Origin: Ginsengibacter hankyongi
Lineage (GTDB): Bacteria; Bacteroidota; Bacteroidia; Chitinophagales; Chitinophagaceae
Direction: 5' to 3'
Length of the DNA stretch: 64,000 bases
NCBI RefSeq assembly: GCF_008710285.1
Contig: NZ_VYQF01000004.1
Coordinates: forward strand, 62,001-126,000
The notes below the pieces were generated by a model. The model was not told where the DNA came from. It worked only from the letters and a program-made list of their open reading frames with translations, and did not search any database. The position numbers were made by a program, and so were the translations under genes. This document shows positions 54,847 through 56,381 of this stretch, in pieces. Every line of letters starts with the position of its first letter. Position 1 is the stretch's first letter.

Positions 54847-54859
54847 GCCTTTTATTATT

Positions 54860-54933
54860 ATCACGCAAAAACTTGATATTTTAAATTATCACGTATATGC
54901 GTGATATTTTTGTTTATCACGTTTAAACGTGAT
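54860..54933. repeat. Three phased ATCACG-N6-CGTGAT palindromes upstream of satD
   Basis: Copies lie at 54860-54877, 54888-54905 and 54916-54933, with starts exactly 28 bases apart and AT-only or nearly AT-only 10-base spacers. The third is perfect and extends to a 22-base palindrome (54914-54935). The first has one changed base in its right arm (CTTGAT). They end 26 bases before the satD start, the usual place for an operator array. Confidence 0.8.
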
Positions 54934-54959
54934 AATTTTATAGAAAGTATATTGTTCCA

Positions 54960-55571
54960 ATGATTGCCGTTATTACAGGAGATATTACCGATTCAAAAAA
55001 AATTGATCCAAAGATCTGGCTAAAGCCTTTAAAGAAAGAATTAGATACTATCGGCAGCAGCCCGAAATTTTGGGAAATATACCGTGGGGACAGCTTTCAA
55101 ATAATTATCAGCAAGCCGGAAGACGCTTTAAGAACAGCGATAAAAATTAAGGCTACTTTAAAATCGATCCAGGACATGGATGTGCGTATGGCAATAGGCA
55201 TTGGAACCAGGACACACAATGCTCCGAAGGTTACAGAATCTAACGGTACCGCGTTTATTCATTCCGGTGAAAAATTTGAATTGCTTAAAAAAGAAAAACA
55301 AAATCTTGCTGTAAAAAGTGACTGGCCCGGGTTTGATAAAGAAATGAATCTTTTTCTAAAACTGGCTTTAATTGCTATGGATAACTGGACGGTAAATGCT
55401 GCTGAAATAGTAAAAACAACCATGGAAAATCCAGATAAGCTGCAGGAAGAATTAGGACAAATAGTTGGCATAAAACAAAATGCAATTAGTAACAGGCTTA
55501 AGCGGGCTTACTACGATGAAATAATGGAAGTAAATGAGATGTACCTGTCAAAATTAAAAACATTGAAATGA
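54960..55571 (+). CDS. SatD-family protein with C-terminal DNA-binding-like region
   Basis: The 203-residue protein has the SatD opening AVITGDITDSKKIDPKIW, a central YRGDSFQIIISKPEDALRTA and RMAIGIGTRTHNAP, and a C-terminal segment (LQEELGQIVGIKQNAISNRL, about 155-180) that looks like a helix-turn-helix. The family has no established biochemistry. It overlaps the DUF3307 gene by four bases. The HTH and the flanking palindromes together suggest self-regulation, which is inference. Confidence 0.82.
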   Translation: MIAVITGDITDSKKIDPKIWLKPLKKELDTIGSSPKFWEIYRGDSFQIIISKPEDALRTAIKIKATLKSIQDMDVRMAIGIGTRTHNAPKVTESNGTAFIHSGEKFELLKKEKQNLAVKSDWPGFDKEMNLFLKLALIAMDNWTVNAAEIVKTTMENPDKLQEELGQIVGIKQNAISNRLKRAYYDEIMEVNEMYLSKLKTLK

Positions 55572-56293
55572 TTGTTTTGCTGAAATTATTTATAGCTCAT
55601 CTAACCGGCGATTTTTTGTTGCAGCCTGAAAAATGGGTTAGAGCAAAAGAAGAAAAAAAGTTGGGCGCATGGCAATTGTACTGCCACTCGTTGTTGCATG
55701 GCGTATTGGTTTTATTGCTCATGTGGGATACCAGCTTTTGGATGTGGGCATTGCTCATCGCGTTTGTTCATTTGGTAATTGATTCATTTAAATTACTGGT
55801 TCAAAAAAATAATACAAAGCGGGCACTTTTTTTTATAGATCAGCTACTTCATTTTATTTCCATTTATGCAATATGGTTATTGTATGAAGGGAAATACTTT
55901 TCATTTTCATTTTTGAAAAATGCCAATTTATTGTTGTTGATCGTGCTGATAATTTTTCTAACCAGGCCTGTATCATTTGCCGTAAAAATATTTATTTCAA
56001 AGTGGACGCCGGATACTGAAGCGGGTGATGATGTAGTATCGCTGCAAAGTGCGGGAATGAATATTGGCATTTTAGAAAGATTGCTGGTATTTGTATTTAT
56101 GATTAACAACGAGTGGCAGGCCGTGGGGTTTCTTCTTGCCGCAAAATCAGTTTTCAGGTTTGGAAATTTGCAGGAAGCGAAAGACCGGAAACTTACAGAA
56201 TATATTTTAATAGGAACCTTGCTAAGCTTTGGTATTGCTGTTCTTACAGGAATGGGATACCAATACGTGATCGCCCTAAAGCTGGGTTATTGA
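55568..56293 (+). CDS. DUF3307 membrane protein, partner of SatD
   Basis: The 241-residue protein has about seven hydrophobic segments and the family N-terminus LLKLFIAHLTGDFLLQPEKW, then HSLLHGVLVLLLMW and AFVHLVIDSFKLLVQKNN. Conserved His/Asp residues near membrane faces (HLTGDF, CHSLLHG, HLVIDS) hint at metal or small-molecule chemistry, but no activity is known. Its start overlaps the satD stop (ATGA), and two more copies of the palindrome follow its stop codon. Confidence 0.82.
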   Translation: MIVLLKLFIAHLTGDFLLQPEKWVRAKEEKKLGAWQLYCHSLLHGVLVLLLMWDTSFWMWALLIAFVHLVIDSFKLLVQKNNTKRALFFIDQLLHFISIYAIWLLYEGKYFSFSFLKNANLLLLIVLIIFLTRPVSFAVKIFISKWTPDTEAGDDVVSLQSAGMNIGILERLLVFVFMINNEWQAVGFLLAAKSVFRFGNLQEAKDRKLTEYILIGTLLSFGIAVLTGMGYQYVIALKLGY

Positions 56294-56312
56294 ATTTTTC
56301 CTGGTAATTAAT

Positions 56313-56358
56313 ATCACGTAAAAGCGTGATAAATTGAATTATCACGTAAATGCATGAT
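56313..56358. repeat. Two phased ATCACG-type palindromes downstream of DUF3307
   Basis: Copies lie at 56313-56330 (ATCACGTAAAAGCGTGAT) and 56341-56358 (ATCACGTAAATGCATGAT), again with starts 28 bases apart. They lie between convergent genes, so a promoter role is less obvious here. A role as flanking repeats or RNA hairpins is possible. Confidence 0.75.
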
Positions 56359-56381
56359 AATTAATTCGCCTCTAAAATTAA

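Follow-up and report, generated by a model that had tools for sequence, protein, structure and literature searches.

The window analyzed here is a stretch of 64,000 nucleotides from Ginsengibacter hankyongi (contig NZ_VYQF01000004.1, positions 62,001 to 126,000), in which satD and an adjoining gene for a DUF3307 membrane protein are accompanied by five palindromes. Among described systems, the sat operon of Streptococcus mutans is close in that its SatD belongs to the same Pfam family, PF16264. The name SatD refers to secretion and acid tolerance, and a link of sat genes with acid tolerance has been reported; in S. pyogenes, satD is reported to be essential yet accessory (178 of 249 genomes; PMC11323703). 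Among the papers listed in a literature search covering few subscription journals, none was seen to deal with SatD DNA binding or SatD operators. Comparison of SatD loci across genomes makes it highly likely that SatD binds DNA sequence-specifically and thereby regulates its own operon, satD-DUF3307, presumably as dimers on palindromes spaced 28 or 29 bp apart.

The locus can also be compared with systems of known function. SatD resembles class III cyclases and GGDEF diguanylate cyclases in its predicted fold and perhaps in its conserved residues D8 and D44, whereas the SatD of the window carries RGDSF and is fused to a DNA-binding helix-turn-helix (HTH), and its cyclase activity is putative. 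Regulators of the PucR/CdaR type also join a GGDEF-like domain to a C-terminal HTH, and 3onq, a regulator of polyketide synthase expression that we take to be of this type, is a weak fold match to SatD (E 0.019); none of their Pfam domains was found in SatD in a scan to E 1, however, and SatD differs from them in keeping D8 and D44. Autoregulated toxin-antitoxin operons are similar in having two genes, operators that cover the promoter, and a first gene whose product is apparently an autoregulator, and further likenesses are the presence of the pair on very small plasmids and a weak match to the HipB antitoxin model (E 0.079). In contrast to toxin-antitoxin systems, the DUF3307 model matched no solved structure, the examined chromosomal copies lie beside housekeeping genes, and toxicity is putative. 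The Pycsar systems likewise place a cyclase-fold protein beside a membrane-type protein, and one SatD-DUF3307 pair adjoins Pycsar-type genes on a Sphingomonas plasmid, but no PADLOC model matches either window protein (to E 1), and SatD has an HTH with operator arrays.

Palindrome array at the satD locus

The satD gene (54960 to 55571, plus strand) encodes a protein of 203 amino acids with a predicted cyclase-fold N-terminal domain and a predicted C-terminal HTH, and it overlaps by 4 nt the DUF3307 gene (55568 to 56293, plus strand), which encodes a predicted multi-helix protein of 241 amino acids. The two products belong to PF16264 (31.6 bits, cut-off 29) and PF11750 (94.4 bits, cut-off 23), respectively. 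The first-pass annotation had reported five copies of ATCACG-N6-CGTGAT around these genes. All five palindromes lie where it placed them, three before satD and two after DUF3307; the copies at 54888, 54916, and 56313 are exact, whereas those at 54860 (ending in CTTGAT) and 56341 (ending in CATGAT) have one mismatch each. Taken as 20-bp units, to which no strand is assigned, the upstream operator palindromes occupy 54859 to 54878 (palindrome 1, degenerate, TATCACG-N6-CTTGATA), 54887 to 54906 (palindrome 2, exact), and 54915 to 54934 (palindrome 3, exact and nearest to satD, with its outer TA overlapping a -7-like promoter box), and the downstream ones occupy 56312 to 56331 (palindrome 4, exact) and 56340 to 56359 (palindrome 5, one mismatch). 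The start-to-start distance is 28 inside each cluster (54860/54888/54916 and 56313/56341), as had been noted. Palindromes 4 and 5 (56312 to 56359) sit between the convergent ends of the DUF3307 gene and a YhcH-type gene.

No other copy with zero or one mismatch is present in the window, in agreement with the earlier reading. In the whole 5.5-Mb genome, the exact pattern occurs three times, always at the satD locus, and the pattern with at most one mismatch occurs at nine places, namely the five at the satD locus and four isolated singles; a reversed control pattern also gave four. In a scan for tandem palindromes at pitches of 22 to 35, the satD array scored 21, and a further 461,750 nt of this genome, made up of 20 stretches of 20 kb from one contig and the window apart from the locus, contained no other pair scoring 15 or more. 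The palindrome array in the window is not due to chance. The sole background pair scoring at least 13 (score 14, pitch 26) has GTAGT-type arms and lies around position 19257 of L269.

Conserved pitch of the arrays upstream of satD

SatD homologues were collected from 96 of 395 genomes of the phylum and 55 of 195 of the same family; a second family contributed 110 of 199 genomes, and a third contributed 40 of 92. These draws overlap. Named loci numbering 26 were included as well, from which L054 was left out as a match of only 47 residues. Rows of the genome draws without a locus were sampled in part (100 stretches), and because mainly stronger matches were taken, weak SatD matches are under-represented. 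The 254 loci including the window gave 251 that match the six tblastn queries and, from these, 228 unique proteins of 150 to 270 amino acids; the rows dropped were L001 to L004 (the window locus and an isolated site), L054, L005 to L007, L105 (128 amino acids), and duplicates. Enough upstream sequence was available for 227 of the 228 loci, one being dropped for having less than 80 nt.

Each upstream region, up to 400 nt, was scanned for two like palindromes at 14 pitches (22 to 35) and compared with Markov shuffles. The best pitch was 28 in 169 of the 227 regions, 29 in 48, and another value in 10, so that 217 fall at 28 or 29; the 187 loci above the 99th percentile of the shuffles are all at 28 (143) or 29 (44). 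Scanning each locus with its own motif gave 725 sites in 203 loci, and the 522 adjacent spacings comprise 319 at 28, 101 at 29, and 102 scattered values, with none at 27 or 30. L005, L006, and L007, PF16264 members without a tblastn match to the six queries that were examined separately for pitch, have best pitches of 28, 29, and 28 among 18 to 49, each above all 40 shuffles. Tandem palindromes at 28 or 29 are therefore common upstream of satD in related genomes, where the first-pass annotation had proposed looking for the motif, and their spelling is lineage specific. The pitch is general among SatD loci, and the flanking on both sides is not: of the 201 loci in which 150 nt or more of sequence follow DUF3307, exact downstream copies occur in 1, which is the window itself, and L252 has a lone one-mismatch site downstream, such matches being at the level of a shuffled-motif control.

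Several arrays have features of their own. About 12 units at a pitch of 29 lie upstream of satD in L141, and L010 shows a stronger period of 58 nt, perhaps two alternating 29-nt units. L005 to L007 encode divergent PF16264 members with LGDEF where the window has RGDSF, and in L005 satD is followed by a short reading frame that, by eye, resembles the end of DUF3307.

Covariation of the palindromes with the SatD recognition helix

For the analysis of half-sites, 207 of the 227 loci were kept (score of at least 9, pitch 28 or 29), and 203 of these with enough units entered the covariation set. The 20-bp palindrome has a near-constant outer ATA (positions 8 to 10 from the center) and variable positions 5 to 7, which agree within a locus (0.75, 0.88, and 0.81) yet differ between loci; 62 distinct inner tetramers (positions 4 to 7) were counted in the 207 loci. 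Covariation was measured as background-corrected mutual information over the 203 loci, whose effective number is 128. N178 ranks first among the SatD columns at positions 5, 6, and 7 (z 7.6, 7.4, and 9.0), followed by A175 for positions 6 and 7 (z 7.0 and 3.7) and N174 for position 5 (z 5.1), and Q173 leads at outer positions 9 and 10 (z 5.5 and 4.9), where little variation exists. In a joint test over 198 loci, the best of 233 DUF3307 columns reached z 2.7, as against 9.0, 8.9, and 10.9 for N178. In the SatD structure model, residues 174, 175, and 178 stand at the start of helix 173–183, the predicted recognition helix of the C-terminal HTH, whose codons occupy 55476 to 55508 (plus strand).

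Comparison of the three residues with the triplet at positions 5 to 7 revealed a regular correspondence. The combination S-S-E at residues 174, 175, and 178 goes with CCG in 14 of 15 loci, A-A-R with GTA in 12 of 12, N-T-E with ACG in 7 of 7, and D-A-K with GGA or GGC in 21 of 21. For residue 178 and position 6, E is found with C (28 loci) or A (15), K with G (31 of 40), and R with T (14 of 16). The SatD of the window has N-A-N, and the palindromes there have GTG at positions 5 to 7. Among 12 other N-A-x loci, M or T at 178 goes with GTG (L031, L037, and L157), N with ATG (two loci), G with ATG once and GGA once, S with ATG, and K with GGA three times and AGA once.

This correspondence extends to distant proteins. 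When each locus was predicted from partners that share the three residues and are less than 50% identical over residues 1 to 159, 84% of the variable bases were obtained in the 95 of 203 loci with such a partner, while 300 entropy-matched random triples outside the HTH gave a mean of 32% and a maximum of 57%. For these 95 loci, the nearest relatives that carry other residues agree at 44% of bases, despite a mean identity of 55%. Among 88 disjoint nearest pairs, a change of residues tracks a change of site: 43 pairs with the same residues share the triplet and 16 do not, against 9 and 20 pairs with different residues (Fisher p 0.0002), and none of 2,000 random triples matches residues 174, 175, and 178 in this agreement. 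In a second genome, G028, the three exact matches to its own motif all lie in its satD array, with two one-mismatch singles elsewhere and one for the control. Because three helix residues predict the spelling from distant SatDs, SatD very probably binds the palindromes as its private operators. The HTH suspected by the first-pass annotation at the SatD C terminus is thus predicted by the model, with a recognition helix whose residues and the half-site vary together over some 200 loci, and the motif is not scattered through the genome away from satD; the covariation is also what is expected of an autoregulated operon, in which the regulator recognizes operators at its own promoter.

The arrays upstream of satD in L037 and L031 mix TATCAC-type and TATTCC-type units, which suggests a switch of SatD specificity under way.

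Predicted structures of SatD and DUF3307

The best of the SatD structure models has a predicted local distance difference test score (pLDDT) of 92.1, and the other four range from 67.9 to 86.9. Foldseek matched the model best to the GGDEF domain of DosC (E 1.2e-4) and also to the adenylyl cyclase Ma1120 (E 1.1e-3), with template modeling scores of about 0.4 over the whole chain, probably because the matches do not cover the SatD HTH. The N terminus of SatD, as modeled, has a palm-like fold similar to GGDEF domains and class III cyclases. Among the 228 SatDs, D8 is conserved in 222, G43 in 226, and D44 in 224, and D8 and D44 are, by position, presumably the catalytic metal-binding aspartate pair of cyclases; the window SatD has RGDSF in place of the GG(D/E)EF signature. 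A sequence search of solved structures with SatD gave as its best match an HMG-box protein (E 0.026), which we take as chance.

The pairing of SatD with DUF3307 is near-obligate. A DUF3307 gene is adjacent to satD in 213 of the 228 loci and present in 220. In the same-family draw, DUF3307 was found in 53 of 195 genomes, 50 of them with SatD, and in the remaining three it lies at a contig end, in a short frame, or is a weak match; 5 of the 55 SatD genomes of this draw have no DUF3307 match. Arrays are strong at 185 of the 219 loci where DUF3307 is present and at 2 of the 8 where it is absent (Fisher p 0.0005). The DUF3307 model is multi-helix and of moderate confidence (pLDDT 72.3), and its best match among solved structures in the PDB has an E value of 1.6, leaving it without a relative there. 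In 21 DUF3307 sequences, the pairs H11/D15, H40/H44, H68/D72, and D91/H95 are invariant, which suggests a metal site. With a SatD helix that covaries with the operators and a multi-helix partner, the proposal of a self-regulated membrane system, made in the first reading of the locus, gains strong support.

In L102, L103, and L106, where SatD has neither a DUF3307 match nor a repeat array, a ferritin-like reading frame was seen nearby by eye.

Overlap of the palindromes with the putative promoter

Promoters of Bacteroidota carry a TTTG element at -33 at a set spacing to the -7 box. In Flavobacterium psychrophilum, TAnnTTTG at -12 to -5 is reported as the -7 box of sigma-A promoters, and leaderless mRNAs make up 5.5% (PMC9723704). 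Upstream of satD in the window, a -33-like TTTG (54909 to 54912, plus strand) precedes by 20 nt a candidate -7-like box, TAATTTTA (54933 to 54940, plus strand), whose assignment follows the position of such boxes across the family, and the 20 nt between them are filled by palindrome 3. In the gaps of the arrays, 151 of 170 sense-strand occurrences of TTTG (positions 8 to 19) lie at positions 11 to 13, against 18 of 32 occurrences of CAAA, the mirror-strand form. Of 203 loci, 109 have an exact TAnnTTTG no more than 120 nt from the start, and the TA of the last such box lies at offset 9 (44 loci) or 7 (21 loci) from a palindrome center; in some loci this box is displaced by roughly one more pitch. 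For 47 of the 203 loci, the start codon falls at position 18 or 19, counted from the center of the last palindrome. With a -7 box at -12 to -5, this geometry would have the message start at about the ATG and leave the palindromes outside the transcript. Because the SatD sites overlap the -7-like box, bound SatD would block its own promoter, and autorepression is the natural inference from these sequences.

Proposed mechanism and alternative explanations

In the autoregulator model, every 20-bp palindrome would be bound by one SatD dimer by way of the C-terminal HTH, whose recognition helix would use residues 174, 175, and 178 to read the variable base pairs, three per half-site; the conserved Q173 and R182 are weakly associated with the near-constant outer TA. 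Adjacent dimers would stand 28 or 29 bp apart, at a distance kept by contacts between SatD molecules, and SatD bound over the -7 box would repress its own promoter. The cyclase-like N-terminal domain probably senses or makes a nucleotide, which would release SatD and raise DUF3307. Since SatD seems to have one private target, its helix and its operators could drift together, giving each lineage a different recognition "language."

A number of observations weigh against this model or limit it. Upstream of satD, 40 of the 227 regions fail to beat the shuffles. The apparent conservation of the outer ATA is inflated because it was used to phase the half-sites, and weaker covariation appears at other columns (E187 z 3.3, V169 z 3.2). 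The 108 of 203 loci with no usable distant partner fall outside the prediction, and the code between residues and bases is incomplete, since 16 of the nearest pairs have the same residues with a different triplet and 9 have different residues with the same triplet. As to the promoter, the -7-like box of the window matches the consensus at only 5 of 6 positions, 94 of the 203 loci have no exact TAnnTTTG in the 120 nt considered, offsets other than 9 or 7 account for 44 of the 109 boxes, and the offset-9 box scores hardly higher in the last unit (3.61 of 6) than in other units (3.53). SatD may also activate, rather than repress, the promoter. Finally, the autoregulator model does not account for the two downstream sites; they may serve as an auxiliary operator that forms a loop of 1.4 kb, or be a relic.

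It is very unlikely that a regulator encoded elsewhere binds the array and that SatD correlates with it through common descent. Correlation is not contact, and the 16 of 88 nearest pairs in which the site changes with residues 174, 175, and 178 unchanged would fit such a regulator; the signal, however, lies on the helix residues expected at the DNA, the signal is weaker at entropy-matched columns elsewhere in SatD and at the DUF3307 columns, and the prediction holds between SatDs less than 50% identical. Even less likely is that the palindromes work within the satD transcript as RNA hairpins for attenuation, termination, or processing. The two exact upstream palindromes were each flagged as terminator-like stem-loops, and on the minus strand one was flagged spanning the downstream pair, the region giving 5 such stem-loops against 1.2 expected; the sole Rfam match on the array is MicA, at 23.5 bits against a gathering score of 41 (E 0.83). 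RNA pairing alone predicts no covariation of half-site letters with recognition-helix residues, though, and where the start codon lies at 18 or 19 (47 of 203 loci) the palindromes are likely untranscribed from that promoter, an argument for which the low share of leaderless mRNAs in F. psychrophilum advises caution. The hairpin reading was rejected on the covariation and the near-leaderless geometry. The least probable reading is a mobile module bounded by its own repeats, as the first-pass annotation had also suggested. The window does have repeats on both sides, and SatD-DUF3307 pairs occur on plasmids, but exact downstream copies in 1 of 201 loci give no support to flanking as a principle. 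Two of the closest relatives, L029 and L030, share with the window the uxaC gene directly upstream, and the copy therefore looks stable at this locus. A flanking-repeat unit was set aside because exact copies at both ends occur only at the window locus.

The origin of the pitch was considered separately. A pitch of 28 could reflect nothing but the geometry of Bacteroidota promoters, TTTG-N20-TAnnTTTG, each repeat supplying one element to the next, and both the TTTG of the gaps, which is in most cases a sense-strand element in phase with the repeats, and the 20-nt spacing of TTTG (54909 to 54912) and TAATTTTA in the window are in its favor. We consider this unlikely, as 8 of 10 SatD loci on Pseudomonadota plasmids share a best pitch of 28 or 29 (among 18 to 49), and Pseudomonadota are expected to use promoters other than the Bacteroidota type. 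These eight are Vibrio lentus, two Salinivibrio, two Pseudoalteromonas, an Enterobacter plasmid, and small plasmids of E. coli, where 28 and 29 tied in one scan, and Klebsiella. Seven of the eight lie above all 40 shuffles and one (L286) was reached by 1 of 40; the scores are modest (8 to 19), and several loci are close relatives. The pitch was absent at the Pseudomonas fragi and Sphingomonas loci over the same range, and in Segatella, of the Bacteroidota, the best pitch was 31, with 28 next. The Vibrio and Salinivibrio SatDs share the residues A-T-K, and the units of both have a GGCTAA arm. The same pitch in most of these plasmid loci makes it look intrinsic to SatD and weakens a promoter-only origin; contacts between SatD dimers would account for a pitch of 28 or 29.

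Possible biological roles

SatD-DUF3307 may be a stress-regulated membrane system or a toxin-antitoxin or defense-like module. The former was considered because of the sat gene name and the reported link to acid tolerance. In S. pyogenes, the essentiality of satD despite its accessory distribution is as expected for the repressor of a harmful partner. The pair fills much of two plasmids of 3.8 to 4.4 kb, L288 (pEC34A, 3.8 kb) and L282 (Klebsiella, 4.4 kb), and the other three annotated genes of pEC34A are a short hypothetical gene, a Rop-type gene, and mobA. On a Sphingomonas plasmid (L291, at about 11.7 to 16.4 kb), the pair adjoins an annotated Pycsar effector, a Cys-rich protein, and a cyclase-domain gene. 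A more speculative possibility, which we hold tentatively and with more doubt than belief, is that the pair forms a mobile module, toxin-antitoxin-like or antiphage. The DNA-bound row of SatD dimers at 28 or 29 bp would set their cyclase-fold domains next to one another, the array serving as a scaffold on which a nucleotide-signaling enzyme stays silent or ready and DUF3307 stays repressed until a cue; the cue would remove SatD from the array, and the membrane protein DUF3307 would then act. The small plasmids, the Pycsar-type neighbors, the essentiality in S. pyogenes, and the near-obligate pairing are hints in this direction. Assignment to a known defense system was rejected on the PADLOC result, and a search of a phage collection with the window proteins gave no SatD or DUF3307 match.

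As side observations, genes for TIR and ImmA/IrrE proteins lie near the pair in L291, and five more Klebsiella records of 3,770 bases are listed in addition to the very small Enterobacteriaceae plasmids L288 and L282.

The analysis provides the uncharacterized SatD family with a likely molecular function and a testable table of residues and bases, and it links the DUF3307 membrane protein to a defined regulator. The SatD loci form a natural series of co-diverging regulator and operator pairs, useful for the evolution of DNA recognition and for orthogonal regulators, and the mixed arrays of L037 and L031, as apparent part-way changes of specificity, are useful for following how recognition evolves.

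Genomic neighborhood

At the window locus, a glucuronate isomerase gene precedes satD, and the convergent YhcH-type gene and a major facilitator superfamily transporter gene follow DUF3307. A six-frame search for the SatD family raised no match in the host genome, and the SatD of the window therefore appears to lie near the edge of the PF16264 model. The chromosomal neighbors tested (10 proteins at 6 loci) are UxaC, PfkB, RmuC, cytochrome bd, thioesterase, PNPOx-type, and PepSY-like proteins.

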